This document shows positions 3,500 to 62,627 of a DNA stretch of 64,000 nucleotides, one piece after another. Each line of letters starts with the position of its first letter. Position 1 is the first letter of the stretch. A program made the translations under genes and the position numbers. The notes below the pieces were generated by a model. That model ran no database searches. It was not told where the DNA came from and was given only the letters and a program-made list of their open reading frames with translations. The DNA comes from Entoloma clypeatum (lineage: Eukaryota; Basidiomycota; Agaricomycetes; Agaricales; Entolomataceae), in contig OY751495.1 in the NCBI GenBank assembly GCA_963565915.1, forward strand, positions 248,001-312,000. Direction: 5' to 3'.

Positions 3500-6400
3500 T
3501 CATGGTTCGTCATCAGGCTCACTGGCAGGCAATTCGTTGTCTGATTCAGGTTGATCTTGTTCAATGGGAAGTGGGTCATGAGGTGTTTCGTTGTGACTGT
3601 CATCGTCATTGCTGCCGGGAATGAGATCCTCAAACTCATCAGCCGGCTCTGGGTTTTCCATTTCTGGGTGGTTTTCTGGCAACGGGTCGATATGGCATCT
3701 AGGGTACTTGCTTTCATCAAAGATAGCTTTCCCTCCCATGAAAATCGTGTTGGTCTCAGGATCCATGAAGCGGTATCCTTTGACCCCTGGTTTCGATCTG
3801 AGATAAATCATCAATTGGGATCTTGATTCCAGGGAGTTCCTACGTTTCTCCTTTGGGATATATACATATGCTTGACATCCAAATACTCTGACGCTGGACA
3901 TGTCGGGGATCTCATTGGTCACCCTGAAGTAAGGGGTTTTCCATTCAAGACGCTGCATGGGGGTTCTGTTATAGAGAAATGCTGCGTGTTCCAAACAGAA
4001 TTCCCACCACATAGGCGGTAAGCATGCATCGAAGCGCAATGCCTGAGATTTTTCCCATAGTGTTCGATTGATCCTTTCTGCTCTACCATTCTGCTGGTGC
4101 TGATATGGGAGCGTGACGTCGATCAGAATTCCATGATCGGCAAGTACATCTTTGTATTCGTCAAATTCTCCACCTCCATCAACTCGCCACTTCTTAGGGG
4201 TAGCGGCAAATTGGTTCTGGATCATCGCAAGAAACTGTCTTAGTGCCGTGATGGCACCAGACTTTTTCCTAAGCAATACGACCCAGACATGAGATGAAAA
4301 ATCGTCCAAAAACGTGAGGAAGTATTTGTACTTGTGGTACGATGCCGTGGATATCTGTTTCAGGTCTGAATGAATCAGGTCAAAGGGTTTGACAGCCCTC
4401 GTCATTGAATTGGGATATGACTGATTCGGCATTTTCCCTTTGAGGCACCCCGTGCAGCTTTCCTGTGATTTCTCACGTACTAACGCCCTGGGTACTCCTT
4501 TGGTACTAGTGGGAATTTTATTAAGCGCCTGGTCATTTGGGTGGCCAAGACGTTTATGCCAGGTTTCAACAGTGATTTCGCTAGAGATCGCGTGGATTTG
4601 GTCATAGCGTATTTCAGTGTCTAACCAGTAAATGGTTTGTCCGATGAAATGAGGCGAAAACTGTATTTTGTTCAGCCCTTTAGAGATATTAATTTCTCCG
4701 CGCATTCCATCAACTTTGTAACCATGGTTAAGGAAGACGCCTAGGGACAATAGACATGTGTCCATATCCGGAATATAAAATACCGGTCGTAGGAGATGGG
4801 TTTTAGTTTCCCCATTTAGGGTATGCCGTACTGGAACGGCCCCAACTCCGAGTATCTCCAGTTTCTTTCCCTTTGCAGCTGTTTGGACAAATCGCTTAGC
4901 CTTGAGAGGCCTGTAGTATGCAAAGTCCTTGAACTCATGGGTAAAGTGTAATGAGGCACCGGAGTCTAAGATCCATTGTGCGCGTTCTTTTTCCTTACAG
5001 TGTGTGCATGACGCAAAGTGCTTTGTATATTTTTTATATAGATCGCTGTCAATATGATCCATACATTCTGCACTAGTACTAGCTAATATTTTACACGTCT
5101 GAAAGGAGGTGTTATTAGCTTTCCTTAATTGGTCAGATTCAGGAGAGGGAGATGACGAACCGTCAAGTTCAATAAGCCCATCTTCGAATTGTTCTGGCCC
5201 CATCCGCTTGCTTTGATGGTCTATGTCCATCATCTTCAGCGATTCTTCTATCGACGGGGCTACGCGACGCTGTTTAGCCGGCCTTTCGTCGATGTCAGGA
5301 ATGATGGTGTCTAGGATACGAAGGTTTGATCCAGAGGGATGAGCACCAATGTTCCGCGCGAGTTTGCAGATGTGATCGTTCTTTTTCCACGCAGACGGCT
5401 TGCCCGAAGGAAGCCCGGTGTACTGGGATGGAGGCGGGTTCATTCGCTGAAGGAGCGACTGCATCCTTGCGGAATCAGGCTGTGCGGTACTTGTTGTTTT
5501 CCCGCGACCAGTGACGGTGGTGAAGGACGGTGCCGGATGAGGGGGGAAGTGAATGGCAGGAGCAACAAACTCAACTGTTTCTTCCACATGGTCGGACGTG
5601 TTGTCCGCATTGTTAGCGCTTTTCTTCTGATTGCGCCAGCGTCCCTTTCCCTTCTTCTTCTCAGAAGCGGTACTTGGGTCGGCCGAGTTAGGCTGCTCGT
5701 CAGCATCGTTCTGCAAGGTACTCGGCTTCTGCTGCCTTTCCCATTTGGGGTCCTGCCCCTTTCGCTTTGTCCCGGAAATTTTCCGGGCCTGCTCATTGGA
5801 CGCACGAGTAGACCCGACCGCATACTTGCGCCGGTATTCAGAGATGATGCTTTCGGCGACGGCTTTGTAGGTGAAATCGTCGGTGTCGTAGACCTGGAAA
5901 AGAGCGGTGGAGAGTGACGACCAGGCGTCGGGAATTGCATTGGCCAGGATCATTGCCTGCATCAGATCGGGGACGACAAAGCTCGAATCGGCGAGCCGGG
6001 CGAAAAGAGACCCCAGGCGTTCAATTTCAGGCACGGGGTCGCGTCCAGACAGTTTGTAGGTGGCGGCGGCCTTGAAATCGCCGAAGATGATGGCCGGGGA
6101 TACCTTGGAGTAGGCATCCTTTAGCGTTTTCCACGCGCCAAGTGCCGAGGTGCTGTCTTTGATGTGTCGCCTGATCGCCTCAGAGACTTTCAGATGGATC
6201 GCTCCAAGGGCTGTGTCGTCGTCCCTAATCCAGGCCTTTTCTTCCTTGCAGAAGCCGGGCTGGTCAACAGTGGTAACCAGCACAGGGGGAGCAGCAGCAG
6301 TGGCCCCAGGGGTGGAGACCGTGGTGGTGAAGTCGGCGATGACAGGGCGGGTGATATCGCCAGAAACAAGGCGCCAGACTCCTTGATGGAGGAGGTAGGA

Positions 6401-6508
6401 CTTCATCCTTTCGGCCCAGCTTTGGTAGTCAATGCCGTCGAAGACGACGATGGAGTCGAGGGCGGAGCGAGAGGTAGACATTGTAGATGAATCTAAAAGG
6501 GTTCCCAA
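3500..6508 (-). CDS. copia-1 Gag-protease-integrase polyprotein (ends at premature TGA)
   Basis: 1002-residue frame starting at ATG (6506-6508). Residues about 1-300 are Gag of the copia type (WAERMKSYLL, then a lysine-rich tail); I see no CCHC knuckle. The aspartic protease motif DSGAS is near 515. The GAG-pre-integrase zinc site has His near 651/656 (HKRLGH) and Cys near 685/688. Integrase Asp is near 715 (IHSDL), Asp near 777 (RVDGGGEF) and Glu near 811 (GRAERINR). The product makes virus-like particles and integrates the cDNA. The TGA at 3500-3502 lies in the integrase-RT linker in the same frame as RT, so this is a nonsense mutation and not a domain boundary. Confidence 0.92.
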   Translation of the reverse strand: MGTLLDSSTMSTSRSALDSIVVFDGIDYQSWAERMKSYLLHQGVWRLVSGDITRPVIADFTTTVSTPGATAAAPPVLVTTVDQPGFCKEEKAWIRDDDTALGAIHLKVSEAIRRHIKDSTSALGAWKTLKDAYSKVSPAIIFGDFKAAATYKLSGRDPVPEIERLGSLFARLADSSFVVPDLMQAMILANAIPDAWSSLSTALFQVYDTDDFTYKAVAESIISEYRRKYAVGSTRASNEQARKISGTKRKGQDPKWERQQKPSTLQNDADEQPNSADPSTASEKKKGKGRWRNQKKSANNADNTSDHVEETVEFVAPAIHFPPHPAPSFTTVTGRGKTTSTAQPDSARMQSLLQRMNPPPSQYTGLPSGKPSAWKKNDHICKLARNIGAHPSGSNLRILDTIIPDIDERPAKQRRVAPSIEESLKMMDIDHQSKRMGPEQFEDGLIELDGSSSPSPESDQLRKANNTSFQTCKILASTSAECMDHIDSDLYKKYTKHFASCTHCKEKERAQWILDSGASLHFTHEFKDFAYYRPLKAKRFVQTAAKGKKLEILGVGAVPVRHTLNGETKTHLLRPVFYIPDMDTCLLSLGVFLNHGYKVDGMRGEINISKGLNKIQFSPHFIGQTIYWLDTEIRYDQIHAISSEITVETWHKRLGHPNDQALNKIPTSTKGVPRALVREKSQESCTGCLKGKMPNQSYPNSMTRAVKPFDLIHSDLKQISTASYHKYKYFLTFLDDFSSHVWVVLLRKKSGAITALRQFLAMIQNQFAATPKKWRVDGGGEFDEYKDVLADHGILIDVTLPYQHQQNGRAERINRTLWEKSQALRFDACLPPMWWEFCLEHAAFLYNRTPMQRLEWKTPYFRVTNEIPDMSSVRVFGCQAYVYIPKEKRRNSLESRSQLMIYLRSKPGVKGYRFMDPETNTIFMGGKAIFDESKYPRCHIDPLPENHPEMENPEPADEFEDLIPGSNDDDSHNETPHDPLPIEQDQPESDNELPASEPDDEP

Positions 6509-15109: not shown

Positions 15110-16035
15110 GCCTGCCCAACAGTGCCCAACCACCTTCCTTCACGCCCAACGGCCGCCCTTCCCGTCCAATGACTGCCCTTCCTGTCCAATGACTGCCCCT
15201 CGCCCCAACAACTGCCCCTCGCCCCAACAACTGCTCCTCGTGCCCAACAACCGCCCCTCGTGCCCAACGACCGTCCCTCGCCCCCAACGGTCACTGGCCT
15301 CCCCTCGTGTCCAATGACCCCCCTCGTGTTCAATGACCGTCTCTCGGGCCAAATGGCCACCCCTCATACACAACGGCCTCCCCTCGTCCCCAACGCCCTC
15401 CACTTGCACCCAACGGCTGCCCCTCCTCCCCAACAGCCTCCACTCGCACCCAACGGTCATCTCTCATCCCCAACAGCCTCCCCTCATCCCCAACGGTTGC
15501 CCCTCGCCATCAACAGCTGCCCCTTGTCCCCAACAGCCTCCAATCATGCCGGATGACCTCCCTTTGCACCCAATGGCCCCCCTTCGTGCCCAATGGCCCC
15601 ACTTGGCCTCCCTTTGCGCCCAACGGCCTCCCTTCATGCCCAACGGCCGTGTCTTGTGCCTAATGGCCACCACTCGCATATAACAGCCCCCTCCCATTCC
15701 CAACGGTCTTTCTTCGTGCCCAACGGCCGTATCTCGCGCCCAGCGGCCCCCACTCATGCCCAGTGGCCCCACTCATACCCAACGGCCGTGTCTCATGCCT
15801 AACAGCCCCCACTCATGTATGACGGCCCCCTCCCATGCCCAACAGCTGTATCTCGCGCCCAACAACGTCCCTTCTTGCTCAACGGCCCTTTCTTGTGCCC
15901 CACCACATCGACTCACACCCAATGGCCTTCTCGCATACCCAATGGCTGTCTCTCACGTGCCCAACACCCTCCTCTCATACCCAATGGCCACTGGCACCAA
16001 CCCAGCACCCGCCCCCACCATAGCACCCCCTCTCG
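15110..16035 (+). repeat. 20-bp minisatellite array (about 45 degenerate units)
   Basis: Tandem units close to CCCCTCGTGCCCAACGGCCG, 20 bp each, strongly C-rich on the + strand and variable in the middle. Because 20 is not a multiple of three, all frames read through many units and give spurious Pro/Asn/Pro or Gly/Arg/Trp ORFs with a 20-residue period; these are not genes. A smaller block of the same unit in the opposite orientation lies at 21028-21215. Confidence 0.9.
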
Positions 16036-16497: not shown

Positions 16498-16570
16498 GGC
16501 CCTGTGGTGTAGTGGTTAACACCCTTGGTTGAGATCCAAGTGAGCCTGGGTTCGATTCCCAGCAGAGCCA
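16498..16570 (+). tRNA. tRNA-like gene, anticodon GAG, class I fold (probably pseudogene or SINE head)
   Basis: A cloverleaf can be drawn without gaps: acceptor GGCCCTG/CAGAGCC with one C-A mismatch, D stem GTGT/ACAC with loop AGTGGTTA, anticodon stem CTTGG/CCAAG with loop TTGAGAT, five-base variable loop TGAGC, and T stem CTGGG/CCCAG with loop TTCGATT, giving good A and B boxes for RNA polymerase III. The anticodon GAG would decode Leu, but eukaryotic tRNA-Leu has a long variable arm, which is absent; the D arm resembles tRNA-Glu/Asp types. A second B-box-like GTTCGAGTCC follows at about 16590. A tRNA pseudogene or SINE head is therefore as likely as a working tRNA. Confidence 0.55.
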
Positions 16571-19435: not shown

Positions 19436-19586
19436 TATCTATGGCAATTATCAGAATCAAATGCTTCACTGGTTGTATGGTAACCAGTTGTCATGACTTA
19501 CTGATGGAACTTGAATAGAACCCTGATGGGTTGTCAAGGAAAGTTGTATAAGAAGAATCCAACCTCAACAGCCTCCATAATTAATC

Positions 19587-20603
19587 ATGCGCCCTATCTC
19601 CTCTTCCCACAAGGAAAACATTCTTTCTCTGGCCTCCAATGGTCACTCCACTCATCATATTGCCTCTAACCTGGGTGTCAGCCAACCAACTGTCTCCAGA
19701 GTGCTTCAGAATCTTCTTCCTCATCGCAATCTCTCTTCTGGTGGTCGTCCATCCAAGCTTTCTCCCACCAACACACGAAACACACTTTCACAAATCACCT
19801 CAGGGAGAGCCTCCAATGCTGTGCAGGCTACCAAACACATCAACACTGTCATCTCCAATCCTGTCTCCCCAGAAACTGTGAGAAGGGTTCTCAGAAAACA
19901 TGAATTCAAGGCTGTAACAAAGAAGAAAAGACCTTTCTTAAAGGCCATACATTGGAAGAGGCGGTTGGCATTTGCTATGAAGCACAGGGAATGGACAGTG
20001 GAGGACTGGAAGAGGGTCATTTGGTCAGATGAGACCAAAATCAACAGGTTTGGGTCAGATGGCAAGGAATGGGTCTGGAAAAAGAAGGGTGAGGGGCTTA
20101 TTGAAAGAGAGGTTCAGGGCACAGTCAAGTTTGGGGGAGAAAATATTATGGTTTGGGGTTGTATGGGTTGGGAAGGTGTGGGGAGACTTGCAGAGGTTGA
20201 GGGGAGGATGGATGCTGATCAGTATGTGTCCATTTTGGAGGACAATTTGCTGCCCAGCATGGAGGAGAGTGGAATCTCTGAAGAGGAGATCATGTTTCAG
20301 CAGGACAATGACCCCAAGCACACCTCCAAGAAGGCCAAAAAATGGATGGACAGCAAGAATATTGCTCTGCTGGATTGGCCTGAACAGTCCACAGACCTCA
20401 ATCCTATTAAACACCTCTGGGTTCATATTAAAAGGAAGTTGAATGAATATCCAACACCACCCAAGGGAGTCTGGGAGATTTGGGACAGAGCAGCAGAGGT
20501 GTGGAATAATATAGAGCCAGAAGTGTGTCAAAACCTGATAGAAAGTATGCCAAGAAGGGTAGAGGCAGTAATCAAAGCTAAGGGGGGTAATACCAAGTAC
20601 TAA
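19587..20603 (+). CDS. Tc1/mariner transposase, DD34E family, with catalytic E-to-K change
   Basis: 338-residue uninterrupted frame, normal length for Tc1 transposases. Residues 1-45 form the first helix-turn-helix (HHIASNLGVSQPTVSRVL); GGRPSKLSP near 52-60 resembles the GRPR-type minor-groove motif; a second helix-turn-helix follows to about 110. Catalytic residues: Asp148 in IWSDETK and Asp240 in FQQDNDPKHTS. The third acidic residue, expected 34 positions later in DLNPIEHLW, is Lys275 (AAA at 20409-20411). The family uses Glu here to bind metal, so this copy should be unable to cut DNA although it may still bind the terminal repeats. GAA to AAA is a single G-to-A change. Confidence 0.93.
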   Translation: MRPISSSHKENILSLASNGHSTHHIASNLGVSQPTVSRVLQNLLPHRNLSSGGRPSKLSPTNTRNTLSQITSGRASNAVQATKHINTVISNPVSPETVRRVLRKHEFKAVTKKKRPFLKAIHWKRRLAFAMKHREWTVEDWKRVIWSDETKINRFGSDGKEWVWKKKGEGLIEREVQGTVKFGGENIMVWGCMGWEGVGRLAEVEGRMDADQYVSILEDNLLPSMEESGISEEEIMFQQDNDPKHTSKKAKKWMDSKNIALLDWPEQSTDLNPIKHLWVHIKRKLNEYPTPPKGVWEIWDRAAEVWNNIEPEVCQNLIESMPRRVEAVIKAKGGNTKY

Positions 20604-21027: not shown

Positions 21028-21215
21028 TGCTTGGGTGTGAGGGGTGGTCGTTGGGCACACAGGACGGCCGTTGGGCACAGAGGGGCGGTCGTTGGGCATG
21101 GAGGGTGGTCGTTGGCCACGGGGGCAGCCGTGGGGACAGAGGGGCAGCTCTTGGGTATGAGGGATGGTCATTGGGCACACAGGATGGCCGTTGGGCACAA
21201 GGGGGCAACGAAAGT
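21028..21215 (-). repeat. 20-bp minisatellite, inverted relative to 15110-16035
   Basis: About nine units close to GGCCGTTGGGCACAGAGGGG on the + strand, the reverse complement of the 15110-16035 unit. Long ORFs here are by-products of the repeat. Confidence 0.85.
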
Positions 21216-35780: not shown

Positions 35781-36008
35781 GTAATTTCGCGACAAGGAAG
35801 GTATTCAATTACGAACAGGCGACGCAGCTTTTGACGACGACCAGCACCCACACACCGTGTAATTCTACGGCCACACGGAAAGCGACCGCATCCTGGCGAA
35901 AGAGTTAGACTCGACGATCGGACAAGAGGAATAACCCTTACAGAACCAACTCGTGGTCGAGGCGGGCTTAACTAACAAGGTGAAATTTGAAGAGGTGATA
36001 ATAAGCCG

Positions 36009-37060
36009 TTAACCTGGGGGAATAAAGAGTGAGGTGAGTGATGAGCAGGTAGAGCAGCGAACAGAGTATCCCACCGGATCCACGCCGGTTAGCTGAGCTG
36101 GCCTGGTGTCACAGGGGCTCGTTGCGTCATTACGTTCCGAGGCAACCGTAATTGTCGTGACCAGAATCGGCGGAGTCGGTAAGGATGTACCCAGCGGCGA
36201 AAGGCGTTGCTTGAAAATTAGTGAGGGTCTGCGTCGTCGACGGGGGGCTCGTGCTGTTCGGCGAGATGCGCTCGTGTGACAAGGGAGTGGAGGGAAGACA
36301 AAGGGGAATGAACGAACACATCTCGCGCCATTTGTGAGCGGATGGTGAAGGGTGCCGGTGTAGTTATTGAGCTGCATGGTACGAGCTTTGAAATCGGAGG
36401 TTTCGACGCTGAGATCTCTTTGGTTAGTATTTGGTGGGAGACGCCAAGCTGGAAGGAACCGAACACGTCCAACTTTGTCTTCTCTCATCGTATCTGCACT
36501 GGGGTGGGGTCGGAGGGGGATGTTTTGCTCTGCATGACGAGAGTTGTTAACAATGGTAAAGGTAGAGGGAGCGTACGACGTACGACGACGGTGATGCTTG
36601 CGGCACAGATGTCGAAGCCGTCGAGCCCGGAGGAGGGATATGTGATGCTGTTGTTGAGGAGGAGGCTGAAGACGTGGAGGCTGTAGGAGTGTTGGAGGTA
36701 GTGTTAAGGCCGAGCTCAGGCCGAAATAACACCGCCAATACTGGACGCTTGCCATGTTTCTGCTGAGGATGCAGTGGACAAGCTGTCGCCATTCGTGTAG
36801 AGAGAAAGAACGCAGACGCGGACGATCTCGGTGATGGTGTCGAGATGGAGCAGTCCCAAACTGAGAGGGAGAAGTGAGAAGTACAGTCAGCTGAGCTGAA
36901 TGAAGGGAGAGGAAGAGGGACTTGTACCTCTTGCTTGGATCCTTGACGCGTGGTGTCCCAACCTGCCCATGAACTCGTTTGCGCTCGGGCATGGGCGTAA
37001 GGAGCGGATGTGGCGTCTTTGAAGGTGAAACTTGTCCCGCGGCAAGGGGATACCATTTGG
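36009..37060 (-). other. low-complexity minus-strand frames in duplication copy A
   Basis: Overlapping Ser/Pro/His/Arg-rich frames (36009-36992, 36547-37056) without recognisable domains. The counterpart in copy B (45078-45863) is open in only part of the same region, so these frames are not clearly conserved. They may be exons of a weakly conserved gene (MATACPLHPQQKHGKRPVLAVL is shared with copy B as MATAGPLHPQQMHGKRPVLAVL) or chance openings. Confidence 0.3.
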
Positions 37061-37403
37061 ACGGATGTGGGGCAGCGAGACGAGGACCTGATTGGACGTG
37101 GAAGCAGTGTTACGGTGGCACTGACGCTGCTGCGGGGTCAAAGATATCCTGGTCGTCGAACGGGGGTGGCCGCGGGGGATGGGACGGCGAGTGTCGTGGG
37201 GTCGATTGTCGTCGCCGCCGTGGTAGTCGTATCGTAAGCGGACGCACGGAGATAGTGGCGCCATCAACGCAAGAGCACGTGTTCAACGTGTATTCCCCTC
37301 TACCCAGCTTTGCGATGCGTGGCTATGCCCTGTGTCGCTCATATATCCAGCCTTCACTCCAGCGCTCAGTGCTCACTCTTGAAATACCTCGCTCGGGCTC
37401 TGT

Positions 37404-38660
37404 ATGCATCCTGGAAATCCAATCGATGACCGTCCTGAAGGCTCGAAGCCAATGATTGTGAATGGCGACTTCTTTCCTCATGCACGTGGGGTCAACGTCA
37501 GGGATTCCACGTTCATCCATGTTGGCGGGAACATGGGTGCCGTTCGCTTTGGCGAGCAGGCATCTCTCGTATGTAGGATCCAGTCGATCACATCCCAAAT
37601 GCTGAGTTGCTATCCAGTGGAATACTTATAAGTGGCCCGAATTCGATCAGCAAACACTGCGAGTTCTCCCTGCGAGTTCTGTTATACCAGCCATTCGGTC
37701 CATCGAGATGGAGTCGTACAGGGAGCAGCACACGCGTGTTAAAGTGTATCGCATTCATCAGTACGAGGATCAAGAGGATATTTACGACCGTCATCTCGCA
37801 ATCCTCAAATCATCGTGTGTTGTCTTGTTAAATGTTGCCTAATCCTTTCCTCGATGCTCACATGTAACACGAAGGCGAGTTCGTCGGCCTGATATATCAC
37901 AGTTCTTCGGAACTTCAGTTGACAATGCCGATGGTGACCGATTTATCGTCCTTTCGGGAGGTGCGATATGTTGGAATAACGATTAATAATATTAATGATG
38001 CATACTCCATCTTGAATTTCCGCAGGTGGTTTGTCCATCGTGAATGCCGTTCGAAGCCATGAAGACATTGGAATGGTGAAAGTACAGTGTGTATGTTGAG
38101 ATTACTCGACTTCCTGTCCTTCGATGATGACAATTGCATGTTCTCCAGTTCTTTCAGATCGTTGTAGGTACATGTCTTGATGAAGCTATGAACAAAGGAC
38201 TACTATCAGATTCTAGGATATGTTCGGCAAAGGATTATTCACTCCGTGGGACTGGTCGTGGCCGAAATTCTTTGAGCTACCTGTGTTTTCAACGGAACGC
38301 CGACTGTGTTTGGATCCGATTCTTCTTGAATCTCAGGGCCTGATAAGAATGGTAACCAAAACTTGGTACATGGAGCGATGAAAGCCGCTAACTCATGCTT
38401 CATCTTAGACCAAGGGGCGAGGCTTGATGATAGAATATGAAAAGATACTGCAACATCAGACATGTTAGTGATGACTTCGCCGAATGGCTGACGAGAGGTT
38501 GACCATGCTATAGCAGCTCGTAACATACAAGTGGTTTTGCGGCATAGGGGTGATTTCGTTGAAGTGAGGGACATCTTCAGGACAGCGGTACGATCCATCA
38601 GCTGATGTATTTCCTTGATTGCTGAACCAGGGATGAATTGTAACGTTGCGGTTGTAGTAT
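37404..38660 (+). CDS. duplicated hypothetical gene, copy A (leads into intron-like array)
   Basis: ATG at 37404; exon 1 to 37568 (MHPGNPIDDRPEGSKP, FFPHARGVNVRDST, HVGGN). Intron 37569-37617. Exon 2 from 37618 has WNTYKWPEFDQQTL and VKVYRIHQYEDQEDIYDRHL. Later exons carry RRPDISQFFGTSVDNADGD and RFIVLSGG, then FTPWDWSWPKFFELPVF with STERRLCLDPILLESQG, then ARNIQVVLRHRGDFVEVRD. The VKVYRI...RRPDI.QFLG pattern faintly recalls a protein-kinase N-lobe, but I do not claim it. The last exon-like segment ends at 38660 against a GTAAGT donor that opens the array. A TGA at about 38632-38634 replaces CGA of copy B in one possible frame. Function unknown. Confidence 0.5.
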
Positions 38661-40603
38661 GTAAGTATGGTCCCTTGCTGTTGTCCCCTCGCTGACAACA
38701 ACGACCTGACTCTGTGTTGCAGCCCGTGAGTACTCCCTGTCTTCGCCGTCGTTCCCTCGCTGACGACAACCTCTTCACTCCGCGTTGTAGGGAGTGAGTG
38801 CTCCCTGGCCTTGCCGTTGTCCCCTCGCTGACGACAACCCCTTCTCTCTGCTTCGTAGCCCGTGAGTGCTCCCTGTCCTCGCCGTTGTCCCATCGCTGAC
38901 AACAACCTCTTCTCTGCGTCGTAGCTCGTGAGTGCTCCCTGTCCTTGCCGTTGTCCCTTCACTGACGACAACCTTCACTGACGACAACCTTTTCTCTCCG
39001 TTGCAGGACGTGAGTGCTCCATGTCCTCGCCGTTCTCCCCACGCTGACGACAACCTCTTCTCTCTGCATTGCAGTTCGTGAGTGCTCCCCATCCTTGCCG
39101 TTGTCCCCTCGCTGACGACAACCTCTTCTCTCTGCATTGCAGTTCGTGAGTGCTCCCCATCCTTGCCGTTGTCCCCTCGCTAACAACAACCTCTTCTCTG
39201 CGTCGTAGCTCGTGAGTGCTCCCGGTCCTCGCCGTTGTCCCCTCGCTGACGACAACCTCTTCTCTATGCGTCGTAGCTCGTGAGTGCTCTCTGTCCACGC
39301 CGTTGTCCCCACGCTGACGACAACCTCTTCTCTCTGCATTGCAGTTCGTGAGTGCTTCCCATTCTTGTCGTTGTCCCCTTGCTGATGACAACCTCTTCTC
39401 TCTCTGTCGTAGCCCGTGAGTGCTCCCCATCCTTGTCGTTGTCCCCTCGCTGACGACAACCTCTCCTCTCTCCGTCGTAGCCCGTGAGTGCTCCCCATCC
39501 TTGTCGTTGTCCCCACGCTGACGACAACCTCTTCTCTCTCCGTCGTAGCTCGTGAGTGCTCCCCATCCTTGCCGTTGTCCCCACGCTGACAACCTCTTCT
39601 CTCTGCGTCGTAGCTTGTGAGTGCTCCCCATCCTTGCCGTTGTCCCGTCGATGACGACAACCTCTTCACTCTGCGTTGTAGCGAGTGAGTACTCCCCATC
39701 CTTGCCGTTGTCCCCTTGCTGACGACAACGTCTTCTCTCTCCATTGCAGAAAGTGAGTGCCCCCCCTCCTCGCTGTTGTCCCCACGCTAATGACAACCTC
39801 TTCTCTCTGCACTGCAGTTCGTGAGTGCTTCCGGCCCTTGCTGTTGTCCCCACGCTGATGACAACCTCTTGTCTCTGCATTGCAGTTCGTGAGTGCTCCC
39901 GGCCCTTGCCGTTGTCCCCTCGCTGACGACAACCTCTTCTCTCTCCGTCGTAGCCCGTGAGTGCTCCCCATCCTTGCCGTTGTCCCCACGCTGACGACAA
40001 CCTATTCTCTCTCCGTCATAGCCCGTGAGTGCTCCCCATCCTTGCCGTTGTCCCCACGCTGACGACAACCTATTCTCTCTCCGTCGTAGCTCGTGAGTGC
40101 TCCCCCGTCTTTGCCGTTGTCCCCTCGCTGACGACAACCTATTCTCTCTCCGTCGTAGCTCGTGAGTGCTCCCCATCCTTGCCGTTGTCCCCTCGCTGAC
40201 GACAATCTCTTCTCTCTTCGTCGTAGCTCGTGAGTTCTCCCCATCCTTGCCGTTGTCCCGTTGATGACGACAACCTCTTCACTCTGCGTTGTAGCGAGTG
40301 AGTACTCCCCGTCCTTGCCGTTGTCCCCTCGCTAACGACAACCTCTTCTCTCTCCGTTGCAGAAAGTGAGTGCCCCCCCCCTTCTCGCCGTTGTCCCCAC
40401 GCTAATGACAACCTCTTCTCTCTGCATTGCAGTTCGTGAGTGCTCCTGGCCCTTGCTGTTGTCCCCACGCTGATGACAACCTCTGCTGTCTCCGTCGTAG
40501 CTCGTGAGTGCTTCCTGTCCTTGCTGTTGTCCCCTTGCTGTTGTCCCCTTGCTGATGACAACCACTTGATCAGGAAAAACCCAAATGTGGAACGCTGCAG
40601 GGG
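38661..40603 (+). repeat. tandem array of intron-like units, copy A (about 28 units)
   Basis: Units of mostly 68 bp, each GTGAGT - about 35 nt - CGCTGAC (branch-site-like) - pyrimidine tract CCTCTTCTCTCT - CAG or TAG, followed by three bases and then the next GTGAGT. The triplet between acceptor and donor varies (CCC, GGA, CTC, GAC, TTC, CTT, CGA, AAA and finally GGG) but is always three bases and never a stop. The first donor is GTAAGT at 38661; the last acceptor CTGCAG ends at 40600, then GGG and another GTGAGT at 40604. On the minus strand all three frames stay open for hundreds of codons (for example 38975-40000), a by-product of the 68-bp period or, alternatively, a repeat protein. Confidence 0.88.
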
Positions 40604-41110
40604 GTGAGTGCCTCTAGAATAGAGGAAGTTAGCGACGGTCCGTCTCTTTTCTATTTATCACCCTCTCTGAGTTGATTTTGGTCTGGTCATTCACGTGCAA
40701 TGAATATGCACTCCATCTACCACGGCACAGACATTGTTGGTGTCTCAGATGCTAGCAGACATTTCTCCATCAAAGATGCAAGGCTTCGAGATTCATTAGC
40801 CTCGGCTTCACCACCCGAGCTCGCTGTGGGTGCTCGGCGGGCGGCTGGGGCACATGACTATGCTGTCAAGGCTCCGACAGCCATACGGCCCCGGCTCCGA
40901 GCCGCAGGTCGTGCTTTATGCCATAGCGTCACAAAAATATTTCATTGAATTTAGTGTGCCATGCAGAACCATACTGTCCATATATACCTACTGCCCCATT
41001 ACAACCGATTGTTACAGCCGTTTTCAAAATTATAGATGGGTCCCGACAAGGGCAGAGTCGAATCCAAACTATTCTGATAGCTGCATCCAGTGTTCACAAG
41101 TTCACACTCC
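40604..41110 (+). other. tail of duplication copy A after the array
   Basis: Begins with a GTGAGT donor at 40604. The next good acceptor is GTGTCTCAG near 40749, before ATGCTAGCAGACATTTC, and the sequence is shared with copy B. No long ORF; possible terminal exon or 3' UTR of the array-bearing gene. Confidence 0.4.
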
Positions 41111-44372: not shown

Positions 44373-45077
44373 ACATGTAATATCCTCAATATTTAATTTC
44401 GCGACAAGGTATTCAATTACAAACAGGCGACACAGCTTTTGACGACGATCAGCACCCACACACTGTCTAATTCTACGGCCACACGGAAACCGACCGCGTC
44501 CTGGCGAAAGATTTAGACTCGACCGATCGGACAAGAGGAATAACCCTTACAGAACCAACGAGGCGGGCTTAACTAACAGGCTGAAATTTGAAGAGGTGAT
44601 AATAAGCCGTTAACCTGGGGAAAGAGTGAGGTGAGGACCATAGTGTAGAGCAACGAACAGAGTGCCCCACCGGATTTACGCCTTTCGCACACCCCCATTG
44701 CACCCCGGCCTCGAGCCCGAACACGATCCGTTGGACGGAAAGGTACGCCGACGTTTTACCCGGATGACCACTTTGCTGGTCAGTGGGGCAAAAAACGAGG
44801 TTAGCTGAGCCGGCCTGGTGTCACAGGGACTCGTTGTGTCACTGGAAATTGTAACATCAATGAACGGCGTCCCTCATCGATAAGAAAAAAGGTTGAAAAA
44901 GGACGTACCTTGAGTTTATCCTTCCCCAACTCTGATATGATTGATAGAGGACCGTAAAACAATGCTCAAGAGCTGACGTTCCGAGGCAACCGTAATTGAC
45001 GTGACCAGAATCGGCGGAGCCAGTAAGGATGTATCCAGCGACGAAAGGCGTGGGTTGAAAAGTGGACTTTAGACATG

Positions 45078-45863
45078 TCAATAAGTGAGTTTATGCGTAG
45101 TCGACGGGGGGCTCTGGGATGCTGTTTGGCGAGATGCGCTCGTGGGACTATTGTTAAGTAACACCGCCAATACTGGACGCTTTCCATGCATCTGCTGAGG
45201 ATGCAGTGGACCAGCTGTCGCCATTCGTGGAGAGAGAAGGAACGCAGACAGACGCGGATGATCTCGGCGACGGTGTCGAGATGGGCAAACTGAGAGGAAG
45301 GAGTGAGTACAGTCAGCTGGGCTGAATGAAGGGGAGGGAGAGGGACTTGTACCTCTTTCTTGGATACTTGACGCGTGGTGTCCCAACCCCTCCATGAACT
45401 CGTTTGCTCTGGGCATGGGCGTAAGGAGCGGACATGGAGGGTGGCAGTGCTGGGAAGGCCGGCCGGGATCGGTGTTGACGGGGAGACGACGGGGGATTGG
45501 CGTGAGGGTCTTGTTGTATTCGAAGGTGGACCTTGTCCCGCGGCAAGGTGATACGGTTTGGACGGATGAAGGAGACGGAGAAGATGTGGGGGTCTGGGAG
45601 CAGCGAGACGAGGACCTGATTGAACGTGGAAGCAGCGTTACGGCAGGTGCTGCAGGGTCAAAGGTATCCTGGTCGTCGAACGGTCTATGTGGGGGTGGCC
45701 GCAGGGGATGGGACGACGAGTGTGGTGGGGCTGTCGTCGTCGCCGTGGTAGTCGTATGATGTACGGAGAGAACAAAGCAGAGCACGTGTTCAACTGTATT
45801 CCCCTCTACCCAGCTTTGCGATGCGTGGCTATGCCCTGTGTCGCTCATATATCCAGCCTTCAC
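45078..45863 (-). other. low-complexity minus-strand frame in duplication copy B
   Basis: 261-codon Ser/Pro/Thr/His-rich frame (SSHPLRPPPHRPFDDQDTFD, RANEFMEGLGHHASSIQERG). It overlaps the counterpart of 36009-37060 but the frame is only partly conserved between copies. Coding status doubtful. Confidence 0.3.
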
Positions 45864-45909
45864 TCCAGTGCTCAGTGCTCACTCCTGAAATACCTCGCTC
45901 GGGCTCTGT

Positions 45910-47144
45910 ATGCATTCTGGAAATCCAATCGATGACCGTCCTGAAGGTTCGAAGCCAACGATTGTGAATGGCGACTTCTTTCCTCATGCACGTGGGGTCA
46001 ACGTCAGGGATTCCACCGTTATCAATGTTGGGGGGAACATCTACGCCTTTCGCTCTGGCGAGCAGTCATCTCTCGTATGTAGGATCCAGTCACATCCCAA
46101 ATGCTGACCGTTGCCCGTTGCTATCCAGTGGAATACTTATAAGTGGCCCGAATTCGATCAGCAAACACTGCGGGATCTCCCTGCGAGTTCTGTTATACCA
46201 GCCATTCGGTCCATCGAGATGGAGTCGTACAGGGAGCAGCACACGCGTCTTAAAGTGTATCGCATTCATCAGTACGAGGATCAAGAGGATATTTACGACC
46301 GTCATCTCGCAATCCTCAAATCATCGTGTGTTGTCTTGTTTTGCCTAATCATTCCTCGATGCTCACATGTAACATTAAGACGACTTCGTCGGCCTGATAT
46401 ATCACAGTTCTTGGGAACTTCAGTTGACAATGCCGATGGAGACCGATTTATTGTCCTTTCGGGAGGTGCGATATGGGGTTGGTGGCACTAATGATGCATA
46501 CCTCAATTTGAATTTCCACAGGTGGTTTGTCCATCGTCATTGCCGTTCGAAGCCACGAAGACATTGAAATGGTGAAAGTACAGTGTGTATGTTGAGATTA
46601 CTCGACTTCCTGGCCTTTGACGATGACAATTGGGTCTTCTACAGTTCTTTCAGATCCTTGTAGGTACATGTCTTGATGCAGCTATGGACAAAGAACTATC
46701 AGATTTTAGGATATGTTCGGCAAAGGATTATTCGCTCCGTTGGACTGGTCGTGGCCGAAATTCTTTGAGCTACCTATGTTTTCAACGGAAAGCCGATTAT
46801 GTTTGGATCCAGTTCTTCTTGAATCTCAGGGCCTGATAAGAATGGTAATTAGAAGGTACACGAAATGATGAAAGCCACTAACTCTTTCATCTTAGGGCAA
46901 GGGGCGAGCCGTTATGATAGCATATGAAGAGATACTGCAACATCAGACAAGTTAGTGATGACTTCGCCAAATGGCTGAAGAGATGTTTACCATGCTATAG
47001 CTGGTAACATACAAGTGATTTTGCGGCATAGGGGTGATTTCGTTGAAGTGAGGGATATCTTCAGGAGAGCGGTACGATCTATCGGCTGATGTATTTCCTT
47101 GATTACTGAACAAGGGACGAATTGTAACGTTGCGGTTGTAGTAC
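45910..47144 (+). CDS. duplicated hypothetical gene, copy B (leads into intron-like array)
   Basis: Paralogue of 37404-38660, ATG at 45910, with the same exon plan: MHSGNPIDDRPEGSKPTIVN and a STVINVGGN-type motif, intron GTATGT...CTATCCAG, WNTYKWPEFDQQTLRDLPAS, then RRLRRPDISQFLGTSVDNAD, RFIVLSGG, and later exons equivalent to the STERRL...LDPILL-type segment. The region before the array reads CGA where copy A has TGA (about 47116). The last segment ends at 47144 against the GTAAGT that opens array B. Most differences from copy A are substitutions that keep the frame, which suggests both copies were coding after duplication. Function unknown. Confidence 0.5.
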
Positions 47145-50100
47145 GTAAGTATGGTTCCTCCTCGCCGTCGTCCCCTCGCTGACCTCTCTCCGTGTTGCAG
47201 GTCGTGAGTACTCCCTGTCTTCGTCGTCGTTCCCTCGCTGACGACAACCTCTTCTCTCTGCATTGCAGGACGTGAGTGCTCCCCATCCTTGCCATTGTCC
47301 CCTCGCTGACAACAACCTCTTCTCTCTGCTTCGCAGTTCGTGAGTGCTCCCCATCCTTGCCGTCGTCCCCTCGCTGACGACAACCTGTTCTCTCTGCATT
47401 GCAGCTCGTGAGTGTTCCCCATCCTCGACGTCGTCCCCTCGCTGACGACAACCTCTTCTCTCTCCGTCGTAGCCCGTGAGTGCTCCCCATCCTTGCCGTC
47501 GTCCCCTCATTGACGACAACCTCTTCTCTCTGCATTGAAGTTCGTGAGTGCTCCCCATCCTTGCCGTTGTCCCCTCGCTGACGACAACCTCTCCTCTCTC
47601 CGTCGTAGCCCGTAAGTGCTCCCCATCCTTGCCGTTGTACCCTCACTGACGACAACCTCTTCTCTCTGCATTGCAGCTCGTGAGTGCTCCCCATCCTCGA
47701 CGTCGTCCCCTCGCTGACGACAACCTGTTCTCTCTGCATTGCAGCTCGTGAGTGCTCCCCATCCTCGACGTCGTCCCCTCGCTGACGACAACGTCTTCTC
47801 TCTGTTGCAGGGCGTGAGTGCTCCCCATCCTCGACGTCGTCCCCTCGCTGACGACAACCTCTTCTCTCTGCATTGCAGCTCGTGAGTGCTCCCCATCCTT
47901 GCCGTTGTCCCCTCGCTGACGACAACCTCTTCTCTCTCCGTCGTAGCCCGTGAGTGCTCCCCATCCTTGCCGTTGTCCCCTCGCTGACGACAGCCTCTTC
48001 TCTCTGTTGCAGGGCGTGAGTGCTCCCCATCCTTGCCGTCGTCCCCTCACTGACGACAACCTCTTCTCTCTGCATTGCAGTTCGCGAGTGCTCCCCATCC
48101 TTGCCGTTGTCCCCTCGCTGACGACAGCCTCTTCTCTCTGTTGCAGGGCGTGAGTGCTCCCCATCCTTGCCGTCGTCCCCTCACTGACGACAACCTCTTC
48201 TCTCTGCATTGCAGTTCGTGAGTGCTCCCCATCCTTGCCGTCGTCCCCTCACTGACGACAACCTCTTCTCTCTGCATTGCAGCTCGTGAGTGCTCCCCAA
48301 CCTCGCCGTTGTCCCCATGCTGATGACGACCTCTTCTCTCTCCGTTGCAGGACGTGAGTGCACTGTGTCCTCGCCGTCGTTCCCTCGCTGACGACAACCT
48401 CTTCTCTCTGCATTGCAGGACGTGAGTGCTCCCCATCCTTGCTGTTGTCCACACGCTGACGACAACCTCTTCTCTGCATTGCAGAAAGTGAGTGCTCCCC
48501 ACTCTTGCCGTTGTCCCCTCACTGATGACAACCTCTTCTCTCTCCGTCGTAGCCCGTGAGTGCTCCCCATCCTTGCCGTTGTCCCCTCGCTAACGACAGC
48601 CTCTTCTCTCTGTGGCAGGGCGTGAGTGCTCCGTGTCCTTGCCGTTGTCCCCTCACTGACGACAACCTCTTCTCTCTGCATTGCAGTTCGTGAGTGCTCC
48701 CCATCCTTGCCGTCGTTCCCTCACTGACGACGACCTCTTCTCTCTGCATTGCAGCTCGTGAGTGCTCCCCATCCTCAACGTCGTCCCCTCGCTGACGACA
48801 GCCTCTTCTCTCTGTTGCAGGGCGTGAGTGCTCCCCATCCTCGACGTCGTCCCCTCGCTGACGACAACCTCTTCTCTCTCCGTCATAGCCCGTGAGTGCT
48901 CCCCATCTCTGCTGTCGTCCCCTCACTGACGACAACCTCTTCTCTCTGCATTGCAGCTCGTGAGTGCTCCCCATCCTCGACGTCGTCCCCTCGCTGACGA
49001 CAACCTCTTCTCTCTCCGTCGTAGCCCGTGAGTGCTCCCCATCCTCGACGTCGTCCCCTCGCTGACAACAACCTCTTCTCTCTGCTTCGCAGTTCGTGAG
49101 TGCTCCCCATCCTTGCCGTCGTCCCCTCGCTGACGACAACCTGTTCTCTCTGCATTGCAGCTCGTGAGTGTTCCCCATCCTCGACGTCGTCCCCTCGCTG
49201 ACGACAACCTCTTCTCTCTGCATTGCAGCTCGTGAGTGCTCCCCATCCTCAACGTCGTCCCCTCGCTGACGACAGCCTCTTCTCTCTGTTGCAGGGCGTG
49301 AGTGCTCCCCATCCTCGACGTCGTCCCCTCGCTGACGACAACCTCTTCTCTCTCCGTCATAGCCCGTGAGTGCTCCCCATCTCTGCTGTCGTCCCCTCAC
49401 TGACGACAACCTCTTCTCTCTGCATTGCAGCTCGTGAGTGCTCCCCATCCTCAACGTCGTCCCCTCGCTGACGACAGCCTCTTCTCTCTGTTGCAGGGCG
49501 TGAGTGCTCCCCATCCTCGACGTCGTCCCCTCGCTGACAACAACCTCTTCTCTCTGCTTCGCAGTTCGTGAGTGCTCCCCATCCTTGCCGTCGTCCCCTC
49601 GCTGACGACAACCTGTTCTCTCTGCATTGCAGCTCGTGAGTGTTCCCCATCCTCGACGTCGTCCCCTCGCTGACGACAACCTCTTCTCTCTCCGTCGTAG
49701 CCCGTGAGTGCTCCCCATCCTTGCCGTCGTCCCCTCGCTGACCTCTCTCTGCATTGCAGCTCGTGAGTGCTCCCCATCCTCGACGTCGTCCCCTCATTGA
49801 CGACAACCTCTTCTCTCTGCATTGCAGTTCGTGAGTGCTCCCCATCCTTGCCGTTGTCCCCTCGCTGACGACAGCCTCTTCTCTCTGTTGCAGGGCGTGA
49901 GTGCTCCCCATTCTTGCCGTTGTCCCCTCGCTGACGACAACCTCTTCTCTATGCGTCGTAGCTCGTGAGTGCTCCCTGTCTTCGTCGTCGTTCCCTCGCT
50001 GACGACAACCTCTTCTCTCTGCATTGCAGAAAGTGAGTGCTCCCTGTCCTTGCTGTTGTCCCCACGCTGACGACAACCTCTTCTCTGCATTGCAGAAAGT

Positions 50101-50651
50101 GAGTGCTCCCCATTCTTGCCGTTGTCCCCTCGCTAACGACAACCTCTTCTCTGCGTCGTAGCTCGTGAGTGCTCCTTCCTCGCCGTTGTCCCCATGCTGA
50201 TGACAACCTCTTCTCTCTGCATTGCAGCTCGTGAGTACTCCATGTCCTCGCCGTTGTCCTCCTCGCTGACGACAACCTCTTCTCTATGCGTCGTAGCTCG
50301 TGGGTGCTCCCTGTCCACGCCGTTGTCCCCACGCTGACGACAACCTCTTCACTGCATTGCAGAAAGTGAGTGCTCCCATTCTTGCCGTTGTCCCCTCGTT
50401 AACGACAACCTCTTCTCTGCGTCGTAGCTCGTGAGTGCTTCTTCCTCGCCGTTGTCCCCCTCGCTGATGACAACCTCTTCTCTCTCCGTCGTAGCCCGTG
50501 AGTGCTCCCCATCCTTGCTGTTGTCCCCACACTGACGACAACCTCTTCTCTCTCCGTTGCAGAAAGTGAGTGCTTCCTGTCCTTGCTGTTGTACTCCTGC
50601 TGATGACAACGACTTCATCAGGAAGAACCCAAATGTGGAACGCTGCAGGGG
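47145..50651 (+). repeat. tandem array of intron-like units, copy B (about 52 units)
   Basis: Same architecture as 38661-40603: donor GTGAGT, CGCTGAC or CACTGAC branch-like site, pyrimidine tract, CAG/TAG acceptor, then exactly three bases before the next donor. Units are 68 bp (acceptors GCATTGCAG, CCGTCGTAG) or 66 bp (acceptor CTGTTGCAG with triplet GGC); despite the length change the spacer stays three bases. Triplets seen include GTC, GAC, TTC, CTC, CCC, GGC and AAA, none a stop. Rare donor variants: GTAAGT near 47609, GCGAGT near 48083, GTGGGT near 50301. A block of about 474 bp (seven units) is repeated (about 48770 and 49245). Confidence 0.88.
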
Positions 50652-51090
50652 GTGAGTGCCTCTGGAATAGAGGAAGTTAGCGACGGTCTGTCTTTTTTCT
50701 ATCTATCACACTCTCTGAGTTGAATGTGGCCTGGTACATTGTTGGTGTCTCAGATGCTAGCAGACATTTCTCCAACAACGATGCAGGCCTTCGAGATTTG
50801 GCCTCGGCTTCGCCACCCAAGCTTACTGTGAGTGCTCGGCGGGCGGCTGGGGCACATGACTACGCTGTCAAGGCTCCGACAGCCCTACGGCCCTGGCTCC
50901 GAGCTGCACGGTGCTTTATGCCATAGCGCCACAACAATATTTCATCGAATTTAGTGTGCCATGCAGAACATACTGTCCATATATACCTACTGCCATTACA
51001 ACCGATTGTTACAGCGGTTTTCAAAATTATAGATGGGTCCCGACCAGGGCAGAGTTGAATCCAAACTATTCTGATAGTTGCATTCAGTGT
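50652..51090 (+). other. tail of duplication copy B after the array
   Basis: Matches 40604-41080: GTGAGTGCCTCTGGAATAG at the start, GTGTCTCAG acceptor near 50752, then shared non-coding sequence to about 51090. The two copies diverge in sequence after the CAGTGT word. Confidence 0.45.
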
Positions 51091-60935: not shown

Positions 60936-62627
60936 CAACAGAAAGCGAGCCAACTTGCCGAAGTCAAGCTGGATTTGGGAGAACATCAGGAAACCATGGA
61001 AGCAATGGTACTGGACATTGGGAGAACGGACATGCTCTTGGGACATGACTGGTTGGTACACCACAACCCCACAATCAATTGGACAACCGGCGCGGTAACA
61101 TTTAATCGGTGCCCAACAACATGTCGAACCAAACACTCGGATTTTAGGATTAACCTTAATGGTCGCAAACACTGGGTTCGCATGGTTGAGGTGTGCGACA
61201 AAGATGCACCCAAAAAGTCGGATCAGAAATGGAAGCCTGGAGACCCTATTTTGGAAGCTGTCACTCCCACACCACCTCCCACAACCAAACGACCCTCATA
61301 TGTTGAACGATTTGCTCATCTTTTCGAGAAAGAGAACTTTGACAAGATCCCAAAGGAGAGGGAATGGGACCATGGTATTGAACTTACACCAGACGCACCA
61401 AAGGAACTAGGGGGAAATACATATCCTATGACGCAAAAGGAACAAGAAGAATTGGACGCATTCATTGACGAGGGTCTAGCAACAGGAAAGATCCGCCCGT
61501 CCAAATCCCCTTATGCCTCCCCTTGCTTCTTCATCAACAAAAAGGATGGCTCCAAACGATTGGTACAAGATTACTGCATGGTCAATAAATTCACGGTCAA
61601 AGACAAGTTCCCACTCCCACGAATATCCGATCTCTTGGACGTACTGAAAGATGCGGTCTACTTCAATAAAATGGACATCATGTGGGGCTATAACAACGTC
61701 CGGATTAAGGAGGGCGATGAATGGAAAGCTGCCTTCCTCACCAGTCAAGGATTGTTCGAACCATTGGTCATGTCTTTTGGTCTTTGCAACTCCCCGGGAA
61801 CGTTCTCTCGAATGATGGCTAGTCTATTCCGGGACCAGATCCGCCGACGTATCTGCGTGATCTACATGGATGACATTGTGGTTATTGGTAAAACCAAGGA
61901 AGAACTCACGCAAAACACCAAAGAAATCCTACAGATCATATCGGACAATGATTTGTTCCTAAAGGAGAAGAAGTGTTTATGGGAAGTAACAAAATGTCCT
62001 ATATTGGGATATGTGGTTGGTGAGGGACGTGTTGAGATGGAAACCGAGAAGCTGGATACAATCCAAAACTGGCGAGCACCCACATCAAAAAAGGAAGTTC
62101 AGAAGTTTCTTGGATTTGCCAACTTCTATCGACGTTTTATTGAAGGGTACTCAAACATTGCAAAACCTCTCACCACGCTCACAGGCGGTACGGCATTTAC
62201 TTGGGGACCAACAGAGCAGCAAGCCTTTGAAGGTCTCATACGGGCAATTACATCGGCACCAGTCTTGGCATTACCGAAATCAGAGGGACAGTTCAGGGTT
62301 GAAACCGATGCATCGGGCTATGCAATTGGAGCAGTACTCTCTCAGAAGCAAGACGACAAATGGCACCCCATCGCATTCTTGTCGCGGACCATGTCCGCGG
62401 CCAAACAGAATTACGAGATATACGACAAGGAACTCCTGGCGGTCATGGAAGCATTAAAAGATTGGAGACACTATCTGCTCGAAGCCAGGGAGCGTTTCGA
62501 AATCTTGACTGATCACAAGAACCTGGAATATTTCCGTCATCCTCAGGACCTGAATCAACGACAGCGATGCTGGAAAATGAAGTTACAAGACTATGACTTT
62601 GAATCACGGCATGTACCCGGCAAATGA
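60936..62627 (+). pseudogene. gypsy-2 pol: protease end, RT and RNase H
   Basis: RT motifs: GKIRPSKSPYASPCFFINKK, FNKMDIMWGYNNVRIKEGD (first catalytic Asp), VMSFGLCNSPGTFSRMM, CVIYMDDIVV (YMDD box), KEVQKFLGFANFYRRFIEGY. The tether and RNase H (FRVETDASGYAIGAVLSQK, FEILTDHKNLEYF) are the same as at the left window edge. The frame ends at TGA 62625-62627 because 41 bp present in gypsy-1 are deleted here. Confidence 0.93.

Follow-up and report, generated by a model that had tools for sequence, protein, structure and literature searches.

Tandem arrays of whole introns spaced by three bases behind two sister genes of the fungus Entoloma clypeatum

Introduction

Can a tandem repeat be built of introns that all stay in working order, and what are the few bases left between them? 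The question is raised by a locus of the agaric Entoloma clypeatum, within a 64,000-nucleotide stretch (GCA_963565915.1, contig OY751495.1, positions 248,001 to 312,000, forward strand) that we call the window. Reading the letters alone, the original prediction had placed an array of about 28 complete introns, separated by single-codon exons, at 38661..40603. Here we describe the units and their surroundings, their occurrence in the genome, their history and the constraint on their splice signals, and weigh what the arrays may be.

Array anatomy

Array A occupies 38661..40603 of the + strand, from its first donor (GTAAGTATGG at 38661) to the end of its last triplet at 40603, and consists of 28 units, each an intron (mostly of 65 nt) plus 3 nt; position and copy number agree with the original prediction. 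That prediction lacked both a second array of the same kind, array B (47145..50651, + strand, 52 units), and the upstream gene, which stops 55 nt short of the first donor. In both arrays the units run head to tail, 80 in all.

The complete-intron anatomy read on the + strand is borne out in the units. The donor expected throughout, GTGAGT, is present in 75 of the 80 units, the rest having GTAAGT (3), GCGAGT (1) or GTGGGT (1); the two altered donors, GCGAGT at 48084 and GTGGGT at 50300, are both in array B, and the units carrying them first appeared double-length and were split before counting. CAG or TAG acceptors account for 79 units (49 and 30) and AAG for the last, so that AG is kept in all 80 and GT in 79, with one GC. 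From each acceptor to the next donor there are exactly three bases, 80 times out of 80. The predicted intron length of 63-65 nt holds as a mode, with 65 nt in 53 and 63 nt in 15 of the 80 units, and fails as a range: the other 12 introns measure 56-67 nt, except for those of 79, 83 and 97 nt. The last unit of array A is enlarged to 100 nt. Both arrays open with the donor GTAAGT and share the last unit.

Array A may end in a hypothetical 30-nt terminal exon (40574..40603, + strand), which follows ATCAG and is followed by the donor GTGAGTGCC; its counterpart in copy B would be 50622-50651 of the same strand. Around this candidate, 70 of 73 aligned bases are equal between the copies. The sequence 3′ of the arrays (40604-41093 and 50652-51090) is likewise conserved, with 408 of 439 aligned bases equal, 51 gap positions aside, and holds no clear gene.

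Upstream gene and segmental duplication

Each array stands behind an intact gene on the + strand. Copy A (37404..38605) has 8 exons, the last at 38514-38605, and 7 GT-AG introns, and encodes 269 aa; copy B (45910..47089) has the same structure and encodes 268 aa. The gene structure is sound, because the corrected copy B model matches two homologues nearly full length, P0001 (E 3e-67, 94% of length) and P0004 (98% of length). Homologues come from Flammula alnicola and Phlegmacium glaucopus, and a Pfam search of the gene product returned no family above its cut-off. One exon is only 15 nt, or five codons, long (38149-38163, FFQIV; 46645-46659, FFQIL), and is backed by FFQLL/YFQII in the homologues. 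The C-termini of P0001 and P0004 lie close to the stop codon of our gene models, and C-terminal extensions are annotated in two of the four homologues that reach the C-terminus, P0002 and P0005. Both of these are from Phlegmacium glaucopus, with the extra residues beyond the shared end; the tail of P0002 has repeated SGIEELSDD/MHVDS-like motifs.

Gene and array were duplicated together. The two + strand segments, given here by the outer ends of several blocks, are 35782..41093 and 44394..51090, and are 87-93% identical in aligned blocks. The coding sequences of the copies differ by dN 0.056 and dS 0.102, and the gene introns agree at 89% of aligned bases. In both copies the stop codon precedes the first array donor by 55 nt, which puts the array in the 3′ UTR or beyond it, outside the open frame.

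The arrays' neighbourhood in the window is rich in repeats. By eye, and from their first residues, long frames at 3503-6508 (- strand), 60936-62624 (+ strand) and 19581-20600 (+ strand) resemble mobile elements of the copia, gypsy and Tc1 types. Minisatellites rich in GC, with a CCCAACGGCCGCC-like core, lie at 15124-15989 and 21030-21204, at 1448-2529 of L026, and in L031 and L042; minisatellites of this type recur in the genome, separate from the intron arrays.

Occurrence in the window and the genome

A motif of three donors in register matches 66 times in the window, always inside arrays A and B, and not once in 100 shuffles of the window sequence. Throughout the 60-Mb genome (20 contigs) the same motif again gave 66 matches, all in the two arrays and none on the other strand, and its GTATGT version gave no match; uniqueness in the genome is claimed for arrays with these two donors, and arrays with GTAAGT may exist elsewhere. 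No dispersed introners were found: all 32 half-unit matches with at most 3 mismatches fall in arrays A and B. In 20 stretches sampled from this genome, 200 kb in total, there was no splice-like donor pair, and among their tandem repeats a consensus test found no splice-like case except one 52-nt repeat. This repeat (L026 4714-4927, near the contig start) matches loosely on one strand and may be a chance case; its complementary strand also has YAG close to GTRAGT. Six matches to a 17-base word in viral contigs were set aside as near chance level by rough arithmetic.

Growth and history of the arrays

The triplet goes with the intron that precedes it. At columns 57-59, 61 and 63, in the 3′ end of that intron, its linkage reaches z 8 to 12.7; with the next intron it is far weaker (z 7.2 at column 19, below 4 elsewhere). 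Seven of eight groups of identical introns, all eight of them in array B, share one triplet. Since triplet and preceding intron were copied together, the arrays grew at the DNA level, with exchange inside units. Copying of the intron alone through RNA (reverse splicing) would have omitted the triplet, and we reject it as the principal route.

The first, second and last units of array A each have the corresponding unit of array B as nearest relative, and several inner A units are also nearest to B units (one difference between A12 and B07, two between A08 and B45). Because the end units pair across the copies, and some inner A units are nearer to B than to A, the array predates the gene duplication; its length has presumably been altered in one or both copies since then. 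Block duplications are seen inside the arrays, and array B has 12 identical unit pairs.

Constraint on the splice signals

The 80 units were aligned, the two terminal units were left out, and changes per column were counted on a tree of the remaining 78. The six core columns (GT, the branch T and A, and AG) have undergone 1 parsimony change against 20.2 predicted by the remaining intron columns, a comparison between units of one genome that presumes a tree although units exchange sequence (the linkage is mostly local within the unit). This count is the lowest among 68 circular register offsets. Taken singly, array A gives 0 changes against 10.8 expected and array B 1 against 11.4, each the best of 68 offsets. 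A tree-free test of the core columns gives P 5e-5 for all units, 0.006 for A and 0.002 for B; a tree built without the splice columns leaves the result unchanged, and without CpG the P value is 4e-5, so the constraint is not a CpG effect alone.

The constraint is sharply placed. Donor columns 1-6 total 4 changes, column 7 alone has 6, and the 51 windows of six columns tested from donor to acceptor all exceed the donor's total. Where splicing tolerates a choice the units vary: donor position +3 is G or A, and in the branch site, NTRAY, R is G or A and Y is C or T, while acceptor position -3 is C or T with one A. Variation at such degenerate positions thus stays almost wholly within what splicing allows. 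The signals do not account for everything: five further intron columns (24, 27, 29, 41 and 42) never vary, so some constraint or mutational coldness is left unexplained by the core. With GT and AG taken without the branch columns, the signal is weak within single arrays: 4 of 68 offsets do as well in array B, and the tree-free test gives P 0.035 for A and 0.019 for B. A hairpin at the branch site (GTTGTC/GACAAC) was considered and rejected, the folding of 4 units lying within the shuffle spread (z -0.01 to -1.25).

These counts bear on two other readings. In the first, the arrays are an ordinary minisatellite that arose from an intron, and their splice sites are a founder's legacy, now unused and perhaps untranscribed. 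Concerted evolution, the block duplications and identical pairs of array B, and the many other minisatellites of the genome suit this reading, as does the published suggestion that amphioxus mirages do not interfere with regular splicing (PMC3087553). Unused sites should, however, decay like the columns next to them, and a neutral minisatellite should show no position-specific constraint at splice signals; the sites of these arrays do not decay in that way and are constrained, so we think this reading unlikely. In the second, a single large intron would be spliced, with the strong GTAAGTATGG that opens the array as its donor and the final acceptor of the array as its end, and the units would be intronic filler. 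The shared first donor and last unit, and the conservation of the region 3′ of the array, are in keeping with it, but it does not explain why the donors, acceptors and branch sites in between should be constrained, and we hold it to be very unlikely.

The triplet between introns

As the original prediction had it, the triplet changes freely while the splice signals barely change: with 25 changes in its three columns the triplet is the fastest part of the unit (P 0.003 against other columns). There are 11 kinds of triplet among the 80 units. That none is a stop was rightly noted; the absence is at chance level, 0.57 stops being expected and none having a probability of 0.56. The constancy of the 3-nt gap is equally within chance, with 14 indel patterns and a probability of 0.53 that none falls in the triplet. 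Triplet positions 1 to 3 have changed 9, 12 and 4 times (9, 11 and 5 on another tree), so it is the third that changes least; purifying selection on codons would give the opposite order, and the triplets lack a coding signature. Because the stop of the intact gene lies 55 nt before each array, the triplets are more likely 3′ UTR than codons, and the term single-codon exons is not supported in the form in which it was put forward.

Codons could return by one route. A hypothetical alternative intron of 70 nt (GTACGA..TTGTAG; 38588..38657, + strand) spans the stop of copy A, with TAT and then the first donor of the array behind it; in copy B its counterpart would be 47072..47141 (+ strand), followed by TAC. 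As this segment ends in TTGTAG three bases before the array, the rhythm of intron plus 3 nt seems to begin inside the coding exon. Its removal would take out the stop, and the triplets would then add 28 or 52 residues ahead of a 10-codon exon. In each copy the 70-nt GT-AG segment, TAT or TAC and the 30-nt last exon keep phase, stops are absent from the 80 triplets, P0002 and P0005 have annotated extensions, and a coding tail would account for the need of every unit to splice. Against it are the slow third position, the chance level of stop absence, and P0001 and P0004, which terminate near the stop used here; within the first 17 codons of the exon that would follow, a comparison by eye shows three amino acids changed between the copies, a single silent substitution and an indel. 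We regard translation of the triplets as distinctly improbable.

Coding on the other strand, named beforehand as something that would count against introns, is also unlikely: minus-strand ORFs of up to 424 aa do cross the arrays, but 10 of the 14 indel patterns have a length not divisible by three.

Proposed explanation

We give about an even chance to the reading that the arrays are a mirage-type minisatellite of whole introns, kept splice-competent unit by unit and predicted to lie in a transcribed 3′ UTR. It would have started from a spliceosomal intron just 3′ of the stop codon in an Agaricales gene. This intron and three flanking bases would have been multiplied head to tail by tandem duplication at the DNA level and by unequal exchange; the array would predate the duplication of the gene, and each copy would have retained and reshaped it, to 28 and 52 units. 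Selection would hold donor, branch point and acceptor, while most other intron sequence and the 3-nt spacer would drift. The anatomy, the position behind the gene, the age order, the co-copying at the DNA level and the constraint on the signals are established by the analysis above. We infer transcription, splicing and an advantage that keeps the sites: if the units stayed functional introns, the array is most likely transcribed as 3′ UTR and spliced out. Units could be removed serially or by mixed donor-acceptor pairs, and any choice among intact units would leave a multiple of three bases. Judged by their sequence, the arrays would fit serial splicing into 3-nt exons.

Selection on every unit is hard to explain, because the loss of one site in so redundant a 3′-UTR array should hardly matter, and the two units with altered donors, GCGAGT and GTGGGT, run counter to strict selection. 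In a basidiomycete yeast, UTR introns, 3′ ones most of all, are reported to keep their positions far less well than introns in coding sequence and to be retained more often (PMC5006051); this pattern speaks somewhat against strong selection on UTR introns. Three reasons for selection on each unit may be proposed. A retained unit might cost something, for instance through mRNA decay; it might matter how many introns are spliced 3′ of the stop; or the triplets might code after all, given removal of the 70-nt segment over the stop. Unit-by-unit splicing would yield runs of 28 or 52 three-base exons and, with the 70-nt intron removed as well, a fast-changing protein tail of one residue per unit, an outcome to which we assign a low probability.

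Were the tail nevertheless translated, each change in copy number would rewrite the end of the protein and never break its frame. If the units are spliced, the locus is a natural test both of minimal exon length and of how adjacent introns are processed with no room between them. The arrays would show the multiplication of introns by tandem duplication under way, with function retained in each copy, and sister genes with 28 and 52 units would form a natural series on the effect of many introns behind a stop.

Comparison with known systems

The original prediction knew of no described system of this kind and named introner-like elements, recursive splicing and intron gain by tandem duplication as nearest. 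The first half of this needs qualifying, since relatives exist in the mirages of amphioxus and the repeated introns of a rat gene; among the titles listed in the literature searched, mostly outside subscription journals, none concerned arrays of whole introns with 3-nt exons. The arrays lack the defining features of two of the kin named there. Introner-like elements of fungi form families of near-identical introns, many to a genome, that are dispersed in unrelated genes (PMC4457414); the units here also make up one such family, whereas their genome matches are confined to arrays A and B. A recursive-splicing ratchet site is an acceptor followed directly by a donor, a zero-length exon. Here three bases separate AG and GT in all 80 units. 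Intron gain from tandem copies that inherit splice signals is alike in origin, with one new intron there and whole arrays here.

Stwintrons are removed by consecutive U2-type splicing reactions, as has been shown, and are tied to intron multiplication in fungi (PMC8469720). Consecutive splicing, shown there, is supposed here, and both cases concern multiplication of fungal introns; a stwintron has one intron nested in a splice element of another, whereas the signals of our units are uninterrupted and 3 nt apart. The rat gene, going by the title of the work, is a non-coding RNA gene with tandemly repeated introns (Cavaille et al. 2001, cited in PMC4063771). As in the arrays, introns recur within a transcript for which coding is not required. 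Its introns, by the same title, yield box C/D snoRNA, whereas no Rfam family was found in the arrays: at gathering thresholds the whole window yields a single Rfam match, the tRNA at 16498-16570, and an undescribed snoRNA would be absent from Rfam. An intron of 65 nt has little room for a box C/D snoRNA.

The nearest known kind is the mirages of amphioxus. These are tandem repeats across intron-exon boundaries, many with AG/GT signals, suggested not to interfere with splicing and proposed as a source of new introns; their units are of 10-72 bp in Adh3 and 150-160 bp in globin genes, and number 6 and 3 in two haplotypes of BflGb6 (PMC3087553). The arrays share the head-to-tail repeats across intron/exon boundaries with AG/GT signals (AG in 80 and GT in 79 of 80 units). 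They also share the homogenised centre and distinct ends described there (PMC3087553), with end units that pair between copies and block duplications inside. Mirages belong to a cephalochordate and the arrays to a fungus; each mirage repeat spans one exon boundary, whereas each unit here comprises a whole intron with its branch site and 3 nt, in 28 and 52 copies behind a stop codon and with measured constraint on the splice signals. Whole-intron units, 3-nt spacing, two unequal arrays behind sister genes and measured constraint are together what appears, to us, to be new.
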